Positions 77 through 33,386 of a stretch of 33,386 nt of DNA are shown in pieces. This DNA is from Candidatus Gastranaerophilales bacterium (lineage in GTDB: Bacteria > Cyanobacteriota > Vampirovibrionia > Gastranaerophilales > Gastranaerophilaceae): NCBI GenBank assembly GCA_944325585.1, contig CALVAS010000017.1, forward strand, positions 1 through 33,386, read 5' to 3'. Position 1 is the stretch's first letter; the number at the start of each line of letters is the position of its first letter. A program made the position numbers and the translations under genes. The notes under the pieces are model-generated. The model had not been told where the DNA came from. It worked only from the letters and a program-made list of their open reading frames with translations, and searched no databases.

Positions 77-870
77 ATGAAAACACAAACTATGAGAGGA
101 TTCCAGCCAGGGGGGGGGGGGGCTTAAATAAGGCTGCCTTTACCATGGCTGAAGTTTTGATTACCTTAGGCATTATCGGAATTGTCGCGGCTATGACTCT
201 GCCCTCGCTTATTCAAAAACATCGCGACAAAGTAATCGTCACTCAGGTCAGAAAAGTTTATTCCGATATAAACAATGCCATAATCCATGCACAAGCAGAT
301 TTTGGAGTTATCGGTGACAATTCGCAGCTTTTCAACCCGAATAACACAAGTGTTCAAACCGCTGAAAATTTTGCAAAATATTTTACGGGCGCAAAGGTTT
401 GCAGGGGAAAAACCCGCAAAGAATGTAAACAATATTATCCTGATATAAAATATGCAACGCCTTATGTAGATTCATCCGGTACAAATGCATACTGGGTAAC
501 AAATGGTTTACCGACAATAATTTTACAGAACGGAGCAGTTCTATATATTCAGCAAAGAACTAATCCCGATTGTTACGGAGAGGAAACCTGGCAACATAAA
601 GATGAATTCGGAAATCCCATAAAAGACGCCGACGGTAATGTAATAACAAGTACATCAATTGTTCAAATCTGTGCAATGATAATGATGGATGTCAACGGAA
701 ACAAGTCGCCGAACAGATTCGGACAGGATGTACAAACTATACATGTTTATAAAAAAACTGTTGAACCGACGTATCAAAAAATGATGGGAAGCGAGAGTTT
801 TAAAAATATTCTTCAGGGAAATGACGAGTTTATTTATACGGATTATAAAATAGGGGAAACACCTTCTTAA
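77..870 (+). CDS. Type IV prepilin-like protein, frameshifted by a 13-G run in the leader
   Basis: Secreted pilin or pseudopilin subunit. The true start is probably ATG 77, six bases after a strong AGAGGAG ribosome site; it gives a leader beginning MKTQTMRGFQP followed by a glycine stretch. As written, the 13-G run at 110-122 leads to a TAA right after it. With 11 or 14 G the frame runs through LNKAAFTMAEVLITLGIIG, a class III prepilin signal with cleavage between A and F and the conserved Glu at +5. An internal ATG at 145 opens the main frame but would remove the cleavage site, so it is unlikely to make an exportable pilin. The C-terminal half has DVNGNKSPNRFGQD, shared with the other two prepilins here and reminiscent of pseudopilin calcium-binding loops (inference). 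The gene ends at a bidirectional terminator. Family assignment is firm, exact role unknown. Confidence 0.8.
110..122 (+). repeat. Homopolymer run of 13 G inside prepilin leader
   Basis: Thirteen consecutive G lie between the codons for FQP and LNKAAF. Run length decides whether the upstream ATG 77 is in frame with the pilin: 11 or 14 G is in frame, the present 13 is not. Such runs are classical slipped-strand phase-variation sites. A sequencing or assembly length error is the main alternative. Confidence 0.85.
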
Positions 871-2927: not shown

Positions 2928-4091
2928 TTACATGTATTGTATATTGACCTTTTTAAAGTATTTGTCCTGCAGGACATTGGCAATTTTTTTGATTATGTTT
3001 TTACGGATTTCGATTTCTATGGGAAGCGCAGGGTCATAATGCGCCTGATTCAGTTTTGCACCCACCATGAAATTGATACAATCGCTGTCCAATAAAAATT
3101 TTACCAACTTCCCTGCCGCATTGTCAATATCTGCGGTATTTGATTCCAGATACTCCATTGCCTTTGTCAAAGTAAGAATCCCCTCAGTTACAAGGTCAAC
3201 ACCTTCCATATATGAGCATGCCGGAAGTTTTCCGATACTGATTGTCGTATCCATTGTTATCGGACGGTTTAACTCTCTTGAAATCAGGTTGGCCGTTGTT
3301 CCGCCGCAGATTGCTTTTTTGCCTTTAAAGTTGTCAAACATTCTGGCATATTCGGCATCTTTTTGCTGATGGTAAGGCGGGCCCGTAAATATCAACGATT
3401 CGCGCGGTTCTCTAAAGTACAAAACGCATGCGGAAATATCATCTTTCGGTTTTCTGTCGGTTTCGATGTTTCTTGCCTGATTAACGATATACTGCGAAAG
3501 TTCCGAACTTGAAATATCCGGCTGTTCTAACAATTTATCTTTCACAAGAACTATCAACCCGTCACGGCGAAGCCCGAGTTTTAGTCTTCCTCCGCCAAGC
3601 CCCGCCTGAGTAACGCCGTCTGAACAAAATATCAGTCTGTCTCCGAGTTTAAGTTTCAATTTATAAACTTTCATTTTTCTGTTCTTGAAAGTTTTAGACT
3701 GAATCGTTTCATATTCCGGCGTCATAACTTCATTGTCGCGAATCCACAAAAATTCAGGGTTGCCTTCCTCAACAATCTTGGCATTACCGTAATCATCACA
3801 GTCAATCGCGGAAAATGTCGAATAACTTATGCGTCGTACTTTGCACACCGGAAGCGAATTCATAATGATTTCGGCTGCTTTTCTTATCGGGATTTGCCCG
3901 TTTTCGATAAATTGCAAAAGCATTGTTGCGGTCATACAGGATAAAATATTTGCTTTGATACCGCTTCCGAGTCCGTCAGACAGAACCGCAATCAAACGCG
4001 CTTCATCAGGATAACGTTTTGAGACAAAATAATCCCCGAACGCATTCTGATTGTATTTTTTCATTTGACTGCAGTCTATATCAATAAACAT
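2928..4091 (-). CDS. SpoIIE-family PP2C-type serine phosphatase of the hydrogenase operon
   Basis: Cytoplasmic protein of 387 residues. The N-terminal half is a SpoIIE/PP2C phosphatase domain: GDYF (19-22), the metal-binding LSDGLGSG (37-44), FCSDG (155-159) and KDDIS (216-219). The C-terminal ~150 residues, starting around KKAICGGTT, form an extra domain I recognise only as typical of phosphatases found next to [FeFe] hydrogenases. No membrane segment or receiver domain is visible. AAGGA precedes the ATG by 7 nt. Its place between the sensory hydrogenase gene and the second ferredoxin gene suggests that H2 or redox state sensed by HydS is passed on by dephosphorylating an unknown target; this link is inferred. 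No kinase gene is in the operon. Confidence 0.87.
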   Translation of the reverse strand: MFIDIDCSQMKKYNQNAFGDYFVSKRYPDEARLIAVLSDGLGSGIKANILSCMTATMLLQFIENGQIPIRKAAEIIMNSLPVCKVRRISYSTFSAIDCDDYGNAKIVEEGNPEFLWIRDNEVMTPEYETIQSKTFKNRKMKVYKLKLKLGDRLIFCSDGVTQAGLGGGRLKLGLRRDGLIVLVKDKLLEQPDISSSELSQYIVNQARNIETDRKPKDDISACVLYFREPRESLIFTGPPYHQQKDAEYARMFDNFKGKKAICGGTTANLISRELNRPITMDTTISIGKLPACSYMEGVDLVTEGILTLTKAMEYLESNTADIDNAAGKLVKFLLDSDCINFMVGAKLNQAHYDPALPIEIEIRKNIIKKIANVLQDKYFKKVNIQYM

Positions 4092-4200: not shown

Positions 4201-5922
4201 TTATTTACTTTCCTCATCTTCGTCCTTGTCGTCAAAGTCGTTTGCAATTGAACTTAAGAGGGTTTCGGTTTCAACCATGTGTTCGCCGAGAAGGCAGGCT
4301 ATTTCCTGAACGATTGAAATGTTTTTGGAAATTACTTCATGCGCTTTTTGAGAAATTTTTTCTCTGTTTGTTTCCGATTGTGTTACATCGGTTATTACCG
4401 CCCCGACAATCTCGTTTTCTTCAATTGTAAACGCGCTTATATCATAAAGACGATTTTTAATCGGATAACGTTCCTTATGCAAGTCTTTTCCCGATTTCAA
4501 AATTGTTTTAAATAAATCCGCAAAATCTACAATTCTTTCGATTGCAGCACCTGCAAGCCCGTCCGGACGCGCTTTAAACACTTCATACATATCTCCGGTG
4601 AACATTCTCATAAATGCGTCGTTTGCTTCAAGAATATTCATGTTGCTGTCCACCATTACCGTTGCGGACGGCATACATCTGAGCATTGCGGCAGCCTTTC
4701 TCATTGCGATTTTTCTCATATAAGAAACGCACATGGAAGTTTCCGCATCCCCGTCAAGAAGTGCTTTTGCAAGATCACGGCAGGTTGCATAACCGCATCC
4801 GCCGCAGTTAAGTTCGTCATCAACCGAGTGTTTACCGATTTTTTTAAGTGTTTTTAAGATATCTTCAATAGAATATTCGCTTGTAACAACTTTACGCGGG
4901 GAAACATCCATTTCAACAACGATTTCCGCAACTTTTGGAATAATTTCGCGCTCTTTTACTCTTGAAAGCACATCAGAAACAATGCTTATGCCGGCTTTTT
5001 CAGTTGAAATACAGGGCCCTGCAACACACCCGCCCTCACAGGAAAGTGCTTCGACAAAGATTATTTTATCCACTTTTTCCGGCTGCAAACTGTTGAGAGC
5101 GCGTTCAAACGGAAGAAGCCCCGCGATATCCATTAACTGCACTTCTTTTTTAATTCCGATTTTTCTGATGGTTTCATTCATTCCGCCGTCAATCGGATAA
5201 AGGGTTCCTTCATATGCGGCTTTCGGAACAAATTTTGAATCCGGTGAAACAGAAACAGACGAAATATCAATTGCCTCATCATGGAGCCACAATTTTAGCT
5301 CTTCAAACGTCAAAGCGACATCAAAAAGTTTAAATTCATCCGCTTCATTTTTTTTGCCTATACATGGCCCGATAAAAACAATCGCGATATCTTCTCCGAA
5401 TTTTTCTTTAAGCATTTTGGCATGCGTCATTGCCGGAGACCCTATCGGGGTGATACAGTCCGCAAATTCCGGATGATATTTTCTTATAAAGCTGACAATT
5501 ACAGGGCAGGCGCTTGAAATAAAGAGTCCTTTTTCCGCATTGTTAAGCATTTCGGCCGTTTTTATGGAAACTTCCTGTGCGCCGAGTGCGGTTTCGGAAA
5601 CGCCTTTAAAGCCAAGTTTTTTGAGCACGGAAACCATTTTCTCTTCACTGATTTCAAAAACTCCGTTCCAACTGGGAGCAAGAGAAACGTAAACATCTTT
5701 TTGAGCACGGATTAAATTCTTTGCTCTATCCACGTCCGCTCTTACACGTTTTGCATTTGAAGGACACGCTTTTACGCAGTTTCCGCATGCAATGCAGCGG
5801 TCGCCGATTACGGAAGCGTGGCCGTTTTCTATTTTAATCGCTTTTACCGGACATTCCCGAATGCATTTGTAGCAGTCGTGGCATTCGTTTGAAAGCGTAT
5901 AAACCGGATTGTTACTATTCAT
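4201..5922 (-). CDS. Sensory [FeFe]-hydrogenase-like protein with PAS domain (HydS-like)
   Basis: Putative H2/redox sensor of 573 residues. Domains in order: two [4Fe-4S] ferredoxin motifs (CHDCYKCIRECP 14-25; CIACGNCVKACP 43-54); H-cluster domain (~75-330) with altered signatures SSACP (136-140), GPCIGK (185-190) and LSCEGGC (293-299); a further Fe-S motif CGGCGYATC plus a later Cys (373-398); a PAS domain (~410-515); and a C-terminal helical tail. The proton-relay cysteine of catalytic enzymes is Ala here and the Met of the MPC motif is Gly, as described for the Thermotoga maritima sensory enzyme HydS. This predicts slow turnover and a signalling role. There is no kinase domain, so output must go through a partner, most likely the adjacent SpoIIE-type phosphatase. 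AGGGG precedes the ATG. Confidence 0.9.
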   Translation of the reverse strand: MNSNNPVYTLSNECHDCYKCIRECPVKAIKIENGHASVIGDRCIACGNCVKACPSNAKRVRADVDRAKNLIRAQKDVYVSLAPSWNGVFEISEEKMVSVLKKLGFKGVSETALGAQEVSIKTAEMLNNAEKGLFISSACPVIVSFIRKYHPEFADCITPIGSPAMTHAKMLKEKFGEDIAIVFIGPCIGKKNEADEFKLFDVALTFEELKLWLHDEAIDISSVSVSPDSKFVPKAAYEGTLYPIDGGMNETIRKIGIKKEVQLMDIAGLLPFERALNSLQPEKVDKIIFVEALSCEGGCVAGPCISTEKAGISIVSDVLSRVKEREIIPKVAEIVVEMDVSPRKVVTSEYSIEDILKTLKKIGKHSVDDELNCGGCGYATCRDLAKALLDGDAETSMCVSYMRKIAMRKAAAMLRCMPSATVMVDSNMNILEANDAFMRMFTGDMYEVFKARPDGLAGAAIERIVDFADLFKTILKSGKDLHKERYPIKNRLYDISAFTIEENEIVGAVITDVTQSETNREKISQKAHEVISKNISIVQEIACLLGEHMVETETLLSSIANDFDDKDEDEESK

Positions 5923-15445: not shown

Positions 15446-16201
15446 ATGTTTGATAAATTTAATAAAGCGAAAGCCTTCACACTGTCAGAAGTGCTGATAA
15501 CACTCGGAATAATCGGTATTATCGCCGCAATGACTCTGCCGTCTCTTGTCGGCAGATATCAGGAAAAAGTTACTGTAACAAGATTAAAAAAATACTATTC
15601 AATTCTCTCACAGGCTTTTGAACGTTCTGTCTATGATACCCAGACCAACCCCAAAGATTGGGGAATGGGAGATATGTATGACGCTCAAAGCCACATAAAT
15701 TTCGCCAATCATTTTGTACCTTATCTCAATATCAGCCAAAACTGCGTTGGAAAAGATAACAACTATGCGATGAAACACTGCTTTGCTACAGGTGATAATG
15801 CCAATCCAATATATTATGCTCACGTTGTTTTAAATGATGGAACAAGAGTATCTTTCAGACTGTGGTGGAGCGACTGCCAAGGAAAGTTTGGCACATCAAA
15901 ACCGCTTGAAAGCGTATGCGGTTCAATTGGTCTAGATTTGAACGGTAATAAAGCACCTAATCAATTGGGACAGGATCGATTTGACTTTTATTTAACAAAT
16001 TTGGGAGTTTTTCCAGCGGGCACCCAAACTGAAACTCGTTTGTCATTCAGCACATACTGTGACAAAGATGCAGGCTGGGGAACAAGCATTGGAGGATTTG
16101 GCAACGGCACAGGCTGTACAGCCTGGGTTTTGTATAATGAAAATATGGAGTATTTGAGATGTTCCGATTTAGATTGGAGCGGTAAAAATAAATGCCGTTA
16201 A
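15446..16201 (+). CDS. Type IV prepilin-like protein, intact
   Basis: Secreted pilin or pseudopilin of 251 residues. The start is ATG 15446, with GAGAGG 5 nt upstream; the longer frame from 15398 begins inside the palindrome. The leader MFDKFNKAKA is cut before FTLSEVLITLGIIGIIAAMTLPSLV, with Glu at +5 and a hydrophobic helix, so this copy is intact without any homopolymer. The globular domain has several Cys pairs and GLDLNGNKAPNQLGQD, the motif shared with the other two prepilins. The C-terminus has further Cys and Trp residues. The XRE regulator upstream probably controls it. It could be a major pilin, a minor pilin or a secretion pseudopilin; sequence alone does not decide. Confidence 0.88.
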   Translation: MFDKFNKAKAFTLSEVLITLGIIGIIAAMTLPSLVGRYQEKVTVTRLKKYYSILSQAFERSVYDTQTNPKDWGMGDMYDAQSHINFANHFVPYLNISQNCVGKDNNYAMKHCFATGDNANPIYYAHVVLNDGTRVSFRLWWSDCQGKFGTSKPLESVCGSIGLDLNGNKAPNQLGQDRFDFYLTNLGVFPAGTQTETRLSFSTYCDKDAGWGTSIGGFGNGTGCTAWVLYNENMEYLRCSDLDWSGKNKCR

Positions 16202-31551: not shown

Positions 31552-32508
31552 ATGAAAATATTAGAAGTTAATAATTTAAATTTGGGGTTTAAAACAGAGA
31601 GCGGATTCAGACAGGCGCTTTTTGACATAAATTTTGCTCTTGAAGAGGGTAAGACTTTAGCGCTTGTGGGCGAGAGCGGATGCGGAAAAACAATGAGCGC
31701 CATGAGCATTTTAAGACTTTTGCCAAAAAACGCAAGGATAACTGGCGGACAAATTTTATATAAAAAACAGGACATTCTGGGTTTAAAAGAAAAAGAGATG
31801 CAAAAAATAAGAGGCGCAAAAATCGCATTGATTCCGCAGGATCCGATGACCTCTTTAAATCCTTTATATACAATTGAAAACCAGCTTCTGGAGGTTATAA
31901 AAATTCATCAGCATCTTAAGGGTGACGAGGCCAGGAAAAAAGCGCTTGAGGCGCTTGAAATGGTTCAGATTCCATGCGCGTCGGAAAGGCTTAAATCATA
32001 TCCGCACGAATTTTCGGGCGGAATGAAGCAGAGAGCAATAATTGCAATGGCGCTTGCATGTCATGCACAAATTCTTATTGCTGATGAGCCGACAACGGCT
32101 CTTGATGTAACGATTCAGGCACAGATTATGAAACTTTTGTCTGATATAAAATCTCAGCTGGGAACATCTGTTTTGTTAATTACGCATGATCTGGCGCTTG
32201 TCGGTGAAAACGCTGATGAAATTGCCGTAATGTACGCGGGCAGAATCGTTGAAAATGCACCGGCCAAAGAGTTTTTTGAAAAGCCTAATCATCCTTATTC
32301 GCTTGCACTGCTAAATTCGATACCTTCAAAACGCGGTGAAACGTTAGAAACGATTCACGGACAGCCGCCGACAATTCATCAGGATATTTCGGGCTGCCGA
32401 TTCCACCCGAGGTGTAAATATTGTTTTGAACCGTGCGGCAACGAAATCCCGCCGAACTTTACGGTCGGAGAAAATCACATGAGCGCCTGCTTTTTGAATC
32501 AGTGTTAA
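31552..32508 (+). CDS. dppD: Oligopeptide/dipeptide ABC transporter ATPase (DppD/OppD)
   Basis: Cytoplasmic ATP-binding subunit of a peptide importer. The 318 residues are the usual length, with Walker A GESGCGKT (40-47), the Q-loop IPQDPMTSLNPLYTI (~93-107), the ABC signature FSGGMKQR (~152-159), Walker B ILIADEPT (~173-180) and the H-loop LLITHDLAL. The C-terminal extension has the Opp/Dpp cysteine motif CRFHPRCKYCFEPC, a site reported to hold an iron-sulfur cluster in this family. Permease, binding-protein and second ATPase genes are not in this window, so it stands alone here. Its stop overlaps the convergent prepilin stop. Confidence 0.95.
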   Translation: MKILEVNNLNLGFKTESGFRQALFDINFALEEGKTLALVGESGCGKTMSAMSILRLLPKNARITGGQILYKKQDILGLKEKEMQKIRGAKIALIPQDPMTSLNPLYTIENQLLEVIKIHQHLKGDEARKKALEALEMVQIPCASERLKSYPHEFSGGMKQRAIIAMALACHAQILIADEPTTALDVTIQAQIMKLLSDIKSQLGTSVLLITHDLALVGENADEIAVMYAGRIVENAPAKEFFEKPNHPYSLALLNSIPSKRGETLETIHGQPPTIHQDISGCRFHPRCKYCFEPCGNEIPPNFTVGENHMSACFLNQC

Positions 32509-33330
32509 TCAAGGATATAAACAGGTGAACATCCCCAGCCGGATCCGCTTTCACAATCTTCTTTGTAGTTTTCACGATTTATTGTAGCCCAATAAGCCGC
32601 GCCTGAAGAACCGTTCACATTCAAATTTGCGTTGTTGCTTTCAAAAAATGTTAAATTATTACCGGAGTTTTTTGGAAGATAAAAGTAAAAAATATCCCGT
32701 CCAATAGTATTAGGCTTTTGTCTGCCGTTTACATCTACAAATATAGTTCTTGTTGCATTAAAGTTTACCCATGCACCATCGGCAAGATAGTATGTCATAA
32801 ACATATAACCCTCATTCAAAAATTGAGGCTCCTTTTTGCGGTTATACCATTCACCGTTTTTATGCCATGAAACTTTAGTGTTACGATGACCTTCAAAATT
32901 TTGGTAATCACCCGATTCAGCCATTTCAGCGCATTTCAATCCGGACTGTATAGCATTTAAATATTCACCCAGCCTGCACACATAATACGGCATCTCTCTC
33001 CAGTCAGAGAACTCCTGCGGAGTCTGATCCTCGGCATACAGCATCTGCAAAGCCTGTGACATCACCGAATATTGTTTTTTAAACATTGATTTAAACTGTT
33101 TGTCCCGAATATTATTAATAACCGTCGGCAGAGTCATAGCGGCAACGATTCCGATTATGCCGAGCGTTATCAAAACTTCTGCCATGGTAAAGGCGGGGTT
33201 AAAAAATCTGCGGTGTAAATGTTTTAAAAAATCACCCGAACAAGAACTGACGCTTTCTGAGGAATTACAATACCTTAAAATCGTCTGAGGAGCATTATTG
33301 CTGGTTGCCCCCCCCCCCCCTAAAACCCAT
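32505..33330 (-). CDS. Type IV prepilin-like protein with long leader, frameshifted by a 13-G run
   Basis: Third prepilin-like gene. The clear frame from ATG 33185 (MAEVLITLGIIGIVAAMTLPTVIN) lacks the leader. Upstream and in frame the sequence reads HLHRRFFNPA-FTMAEVL, a proper prepilin cleavage site with Glu at +5, and stays open to the homopolymer at 33308-33320. No ATG, GTG or TTG lies in frame between that run and 33185. The plausible start is ATG 33330 (MGFRGGG..., weak AAGGG 9 nt upstream), joined in frame only if the run has 12 or 15 G; the 13 seen give TAA soon after. The mature part has FVDVNGRQKPNTIGRD, matching the other two prepilins, and C-terminal Cys/Trp residues. The leader would be ~48 residues, long for the family. 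The last ~50 bases of the window are low-complexity, so their quality is uncertain. Confidence 0.78.
33308..33320 (-). repeat. Homopolymer run of 13 G (13 C on plus strand) in prepilin leader
   Basis: The run has the same length as, and a position equivalent to, the one at 110-122, again after a short MGF-type N-terminus and before the prepilin cleavage site. At 12 or 15 G the frame from ATG 33330 continues into the pilin; at 13 it does not. Confidence 0.8.
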
Positions 33331-33367
33331 CAAAGGCTTCCCTTTTCAGTTTCTTACCTCCCTTTCC

Positions 33368-33378
33368 TTTTTTTTTTT
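33368..33378 (-). repeat. Homopolymer run of 11 A (T on plus strand) at window end
   Basis: Eleven T on the plus strand lie about 38 nt upstream of the prepilin start on the minus strand. It could be a promoter-region length-variable tract or an end-of-assembly artefact. Confidence 0.5.
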
Positions 33379-33386
33379 CTCCACTT

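Follow-up and report, generated by a model that had tools for sequence, protein, structure and literature searches.

Poly-G runs in the leaders of type IV pilin-like genes suggest a phase-variable pilin repertoire in Gastranaerophilales

Gastranaerophilales are non-photosynthetic relatives of cyanobacteria that live in guts; we know of little work on their dealings with hosts and phages. The window, i.e. the whole stretch of DNA analysed here, comprises the entire contig C17 (33386 bp) of a 1.76 Mb Candidatus Gastranaerophilales genome assembled in 105 contigs. At its left end, on the forward strand, a strong Shine-Dalgarno sequence, AGAGGAG (64–70), precedes an ATG (77–79) that opens a leader translated as MKTQTMRGFQP (77–109). 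The leader runs into exactly 13 G (110–122), the putative switch, as read in the initial annotation. Downstream of the run, a linker of 16 nt (123–138) leads to a prepilin cleavage site between Ala (136–138) and Phe (139), identified by translation and by a match to TIGR02532 over its cut-off, and to an open frame for a mature pilin-like protein of 243 aa (139–867) with its stop at 868–870. With 13 G, the leader frame ends in CCA GGG GGG GGG GGG GCT TAA and is translated as MKTQTMRGFQPGGGGA, and the TAA at 125–127 is the immediate stop that had been predicted. The lengths named as joining leader and pilin, 11, 14 and 17 G, were correct, and 8 G joins them as well (n = 2 mod 3): MKTQTMRGFQP-G(n)-LNKAA is then fused to FTMAEVLITLGIIG, with which the mature pilin begins at position 139, and the complete in-frame product reads MKTQTMRGFQP-G(n)-LNKAAFTMAEVL. 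Shuffling the window gives an expectation of 0.02 runs of at least nine G; the window itself has two, both G13.

The prepilin motif of the left-locus protein, A↓FTMAE (arrow, cleavage), fits the pattern [G/A]↓FxxxE, and the TIGR02532 match, leader residues included, scored 18.6 bits against a cut-off of 16.3. AlphaFold2 predicted a helix from residue 3 to 55 followed by a beta-rich head (pLDDT 91.8). A Foldseek search with the whole protein gave no PDB match at E ≤ 0.001, so that the name pilin depends on the motif and the long helix at the N-terminus and on the machinery encoded in the genome: an A24 prepilin peptidase (PF01478, over cut-off) and PilB/PilT-type secretion ATPases (PF00437, four strong matches). 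The predicted product is thus limited to a pilin-like protein with an unfamiliar head. A termite-gut genome paper (PMC5877343) describes pilA along with type IV pilus genes for Gastranaerophilales, in passages without mention of runs.

Sensible sequence on the contig-end side of the run had been taken as an argument against a poly-G artefact. This holds for bases 67–122, which are confirmed by contig C7; approximately the first 66 bases (1–66, +) are an error-laden copy of the C7 end, and only the last bases of the Shine-Dalgarno sequence are matched there. Positions 1–137 of C17 align to C7, which terminates with the identical leader, the identical G13 and 15 bases past the run. Since the errors are confined to the outer part, C7 and C17 look like a single locus split at the G run, whose G13 was seen twice and whose outer bases are unreliable. 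The proposal that this copy is in the OFF state therefore stands for the assembled consensus, in which both contigs have G13. The right end of the window behaved in the same way with contig C68, the tail (33321–33386, −) being an error-laden copy of the C68 end. It adjoins a second G13 run (33308–33320, −), absent from the initial annotation, in the leader of another pilin at this opposite contig end; C68 has G12 there with one flanking base altered, leaving the total length unchanged. By translation, the linker of 116 nt (33192–33307, −) is open in the pilin frame, and the second run-bearing pilin comprises 228 aa (32508–33191, −; stop 32505–32507). Both window ends are hence breaks at pilin-leader G13 runs. 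A third pilin in the window (15446–16198, +) serves as a control: it has no run and starts with an ordinary short leader, MFDKFNKAKA↓FTLSEV. The window also contains two proteins with iron-only hydrogenase large-subunit domains (918–2390 and 4201–5922, both −) that flank a SpoIIE-type phosphatase (2928–4091) and a small 2Fe-2S thioredoxin-like protein (2507–2782), possibly a hydrogenase cluster.

Further apparent pairs of a broken locus, C59/C38 and C71/C43, have poorer or chimeric ends. Among the 39 G runs of the genome, 12 lie at most 120 nt from a contig end, compared to about 0.6 expected by chance (arithmetic from run positions). Such breaks may arise either from lengths mixed in the sample or from reads losing phase at the run, and are only suggestive of switching. 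The breaks at runs, and the corrupted sequence past them, are also what would be seen if base calling or assembly had set the lengths off by one and most loci were truly ON, although the agreement of two contigs on G13 at the left locus speaks against such an artefact; the run lengths considered below bear on it further.

The initial annotation had dealt with a single gene, which proved too small a scope. The source genome has 39 runs of at least eight G and 53 pilin-like places, and most runs lie just 5' of a pilin. After merging apparent contig-end duplicates about 35 runs remain, about 32 of which are located at the same position in pilin leaders. The common design comprises a strong Shine-Dalgarno sequence, an ATG (rarely GTG), a leader such as MKKQTMIEFQ, a run of G8–G14 typically followed by CAACCCGNAATAAAGCTCCTGAG, a linker of 16 to 224 nt and a prepilin site. 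A frame leading from the start to the pilin is present at each run-bearing pilin read in this genome, and one length class joins the two. Pilins without a run mostly have standard leaders of few codons, and three other pilins carry broken G runs. Long G runs, up to G20, also occur outside recognised pilin leaders, at three loci of the source genome (L087, L088, L091) and three of relatives (L307, L314, L320).

This design recurs throughout the family. In a survey of 59 genomes, many genera of the family carry dozens of runs of at least ten G in a genome (maximum 111), compared to 0–3 in other families of the order. Pilin leaders with runs occur in at least four genera (designated g1, g4, g10 and g22) and in scattered others, and the leader motif is also present in records of Candidatus Gastranaerophilales/Melainabacteria; several runs in other genera have no pilin motif within reach. 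A comparison with related genomes had been suggested as a check on the left locus, and the homologous genes have runs at the corresponding position that vary in length, with no conserved non-glycine codons at the run site. Pilin-leader switches with poly-C (C10–C13) in place of poly-G were observed at five loci of one genome, G034 (L264, L266, L272, L275 and L283), and at L128, L227 and L231; the flanks of the G034 poly-C runs resemble an inverted copy of the G-run flanks. The 13 runs of G026 (genus g14) are all G10, each directly followed by TAA and a sequence resembling a hairpin plus U run, and a pilin lies 380–940 nt downstream where the contig is long enough; the longer frame does not fuse it to the leader. 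The 13 leader ORFs concerned (within L245–L262) are of the MADAEIKNGQ- or MVTKKSGKN-type. By sequence, this arrangement looks like a run-controlled attenuator.

We classified each locus as ON (pilin frame joined), ON+1 (one G too many) or ON-1 (one G too few). Among 205 pilin loci, 35 were ON, 123 ON+1 and 47 ON-1, i.e. 170 were OFF; in an earlier set, 24 of 155 loci were ON compared to the one third expected (P = 8e-7, loci treated as independent). OFF is the usual consensus state. Mostly OFF loci, together with a few that have closed linkers or degraded Shine-Dalgarno sequences, could indicate a family of dead pilins in which the runs are a sign of decay. However, the pilin frame passes through the linker without a stop in 153 of 160 loci, compared to 13 of 320 for the other two frames, and even among linkers of 100–480 nt the pilin frame was open in 69 of 76 and the other frames in 1 of 152. 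Linkers that are open almost only in the pilin frame indicate that this frame is under selection. The pilin bodies are open as well, the design recurs across genera, and the Shine-Dalgarno sequences are unusually strong, the core GGAG being present at 105 of 112 run-bearing starts (g1 and other genera except g22) versus 14 of 130 ordinary ORFs of the source genome. Decay is thus an extremely improbable explanation. The linkers of L072, L095, L150, L162, L230 and L284 contain repeats translated as CHSELDSESIN or HPELDSGS while the frame is still open, which fits a segment that is translated and then cut off with the leader.

The lability of the runs was evaluated on greedy nearest pairs of loci aligning from the run onwards. 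The state differed in 7 of 13 pairs with at least 90% identity, in 3 of 8 at 85–90%, in 4 of 11 at 80–85% and in 2 of 12 at 75–80%, and the run length differed in 7 of the 13 closest pairs. Since the difference in state does not rise with divergence, flipping is already saturated between the closest copies, and the ON/OFF differences among pairs at least 90% identical indicate that the runs slip faster than the genes diverge. Examples are L061 (G11, ON) and L092 (G12, OFF) at 98.3% identity, L062 of the source genome (ON) and L300 of a sister species (OFF) at 96.8%, and L072 (G12) and L285 (G13) at 96.3%. In five leaders the run is interrupted by A, so that no stretch exceeds seven G and the length is reliably sequenced. 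Two of these are ON (L374, G5AG5; L373, G5AG4), two are ON+1 OFF (L371, G6AG4; L372, G4AG7) and one is ON-1 OFF (L048, G3AAG5). As the broken runs include both ON and OFF loci, OFF in g1, the genus of the source genome, is real DNA and not a base-calling artefact. A constant miscall would mimic the preference for one OFF register described below, but the two ON+1 broken runs of g1 do not agree with it, and within one genome the loci called at length 12 include both ON and OFF cases. Lengths that are wrong throughout are therefore very improbable; a one-base miscall in g22, which is represented by a single genome, is possible.

The frames, the recurrence, the lability and the broken runs make phase variation through a G run in the prepilin leader, as originally proposed, the best-supported reading. 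Judged from sequence comparisons, it is highly likely that these are contingency loci at which slipped-strand mispairing varies a large type IV pilin-like repertoire. Each switchable gene consists of a strong ribosome site, about 7–17 leader codons, a G run (mostly G10–G14), a linker of about 9 to 480 nt and a prepilin peptidase site. Replication slippage would add or remove a G; one length class modulo 3 fuses leader and pilin (ON), and the other two hit a stop past the run (OFF). Prepilin cleavage would then remove leader, run and linker from the mature pilin. Since all three are located 5' of the cleavage site, the run length leaves no trace in the mature pilin, and the linker, cut from the product, is free to drift and to gain repeats while its frame stays open. 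A large set of surface fibres would very probably be shuffled at random by the ON and OFF run lengths, so that cells within one population may differ in the pilins they make, and the benefit may lie in varied fibres presented towards host, phage or neighbours.

Phase-variable G runs are known from other surface structures. In Neisseria gonorrhoeae, the G run of pilC lies within the signal-peptide region (PMC5354566, citing Jonsson 1991). Both systems place the run in the cleaved signal part of a pilus gene and rely on a frameshift for ON/OFF control; however, PilC is a tip/base protein with two copies, whereas here the pilin-like subunits themselves appear to be controlled at about 32 loci, whose leaders are of the prepilin type and whose linkers are long and variable. 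Campylobacter jejuni NCTC11168 has 29 polyG/polyC contingency loci, and runs of this length slip there during replication, at reported rates of about 1e-3 per division (PMC4965091). As in Gastranaerophilales, many G runs of similar length occur per genome and allow combinatorial ON/OFF states, but those of C. jejuni mostly lie in the main part of surface-modification genes (PMC4965091), whereas nearly all Gastranaerophilales runs occupy the same position within a single gene family, whose leader is conserved and whose run-free paralogues lie next to them. Gene conversion in Neisseria and inversion in Moraxella bovis vary the displayed pilin (PMC11868660); whereas those systems work by recombination or inversion, every locus here carries a start and a repeat switch of its own. 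In the open-access full-text literature, no paper joined Gastranaerophil* with phase variation, and for Melainabacteria the combination led to a single paper, on a flagellin; subscription journals and preprints were outside the scope of this search. On the basis of the open literature, the switchable pilin repertoire would provisionally be the first such system reported in Gastranaerophilales. Given some 32 switchable pilin loci here and as many as 111 G runs in relatives, it would rank with the largest known repeat-based contingency systems. The system also explains why contigs of this assembly end at pilin genes, and many of these pilins will be cut short or overlooked in automatic gene calling.

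The distribution of the OFF states is a puzzle that simple slippage models do not predict. By genus, the numbers of ON, ON+1 and ON-1 loci were 16/84/9 in g1, 8/26/0 in g10, 2/7/1 in g4 and 7/1/34 in g22; thus, one OFF register is nearly empty per genus (ON-1 in g1 and g10, ON+1 in g22), a distribution at odds with free slippage and two equivalent OFF frames. The preferred register is independent of absolute length, as in g1 and g10 most loci of either class, 12 or 13, are ON+1. This dominance of one out-of-frame register whatever the length, together with an ON fraction of only 17%, would fit a programmed slippage of ribosome or RNA polymerase on the G run, with OFF as the normal DNA state, a steady pilin output and DNA switching as secondary. 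In g1 and g22, moreover, the stop in the occupied OFF frame lies at a median of 8–10 nt past the run (30 nt in the empty frame), a position common at frameshift sites. However, the sign differs by genus (+1 in g1, g10 and g4; -1 in g22), near-identical loci differ in state, and the DNA of some broken runs is already in the ON frame, which makes programmed slippage improbable. A conserved programmed +1 frameshift, considered because 64 of 90 loci were ON+1, was weakened by the ON-1 lock of g22 and again by the near-identical loci that differ in state.

Phase variation by DNA slippage remains our preferred reading, and several further ideas were examined. A rule placing loci in whichever OFF frame reaches a stop sooner described g1 and g22 (125 early, 24 ON and 6 late) but failed in g10 and g4 and is not general. 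The early stop in g1 and g22 lies near a sequence complementary to the Shine-Dalgarno sequence; the complementarity between the latter and the post-run sequence amounted to -11.3 kcal/mol versus -7.0 in shuffled sequence in g1 and to -8.9 versus -6.8 in g22. A ribosome-site hairpin was nevertheless rejected, as cross-pairing between genera gave no clear covariation, the fold z-scores were unremarkable and the hairpin was absent at the left locus of the window. Alternative starts in the pilin frame were dismissed by eye on typical g1 leaders, in which this frame is interrupted by TGA both at the ATG and ahead of the run, leaving no better start than a TTG or CTG distant from the Shine-Dalgarno sequence. 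We regard it as rather doubtful that each lineage is held in one OFF register in which the run acts as a two-state toggle on translation or attenuation, possibly with a slippage-based leak. In two genera, translation would then end right after the run, before the sequence complementary to the leader's own ribosome site, and in another genus the OFF stop precedes a hairpin with a U run. If so, dozens of pilins would be held at a tuned background and a few would be fully ON. Loss of mismatch repair was discarded, as mutS, the one repair gene considered, is present with an intact frame. This mutS (contig C8 of the source genome, 27476–30058, −) lies directly 5' of a run-bearing pilin on the same strand (L070/L305).
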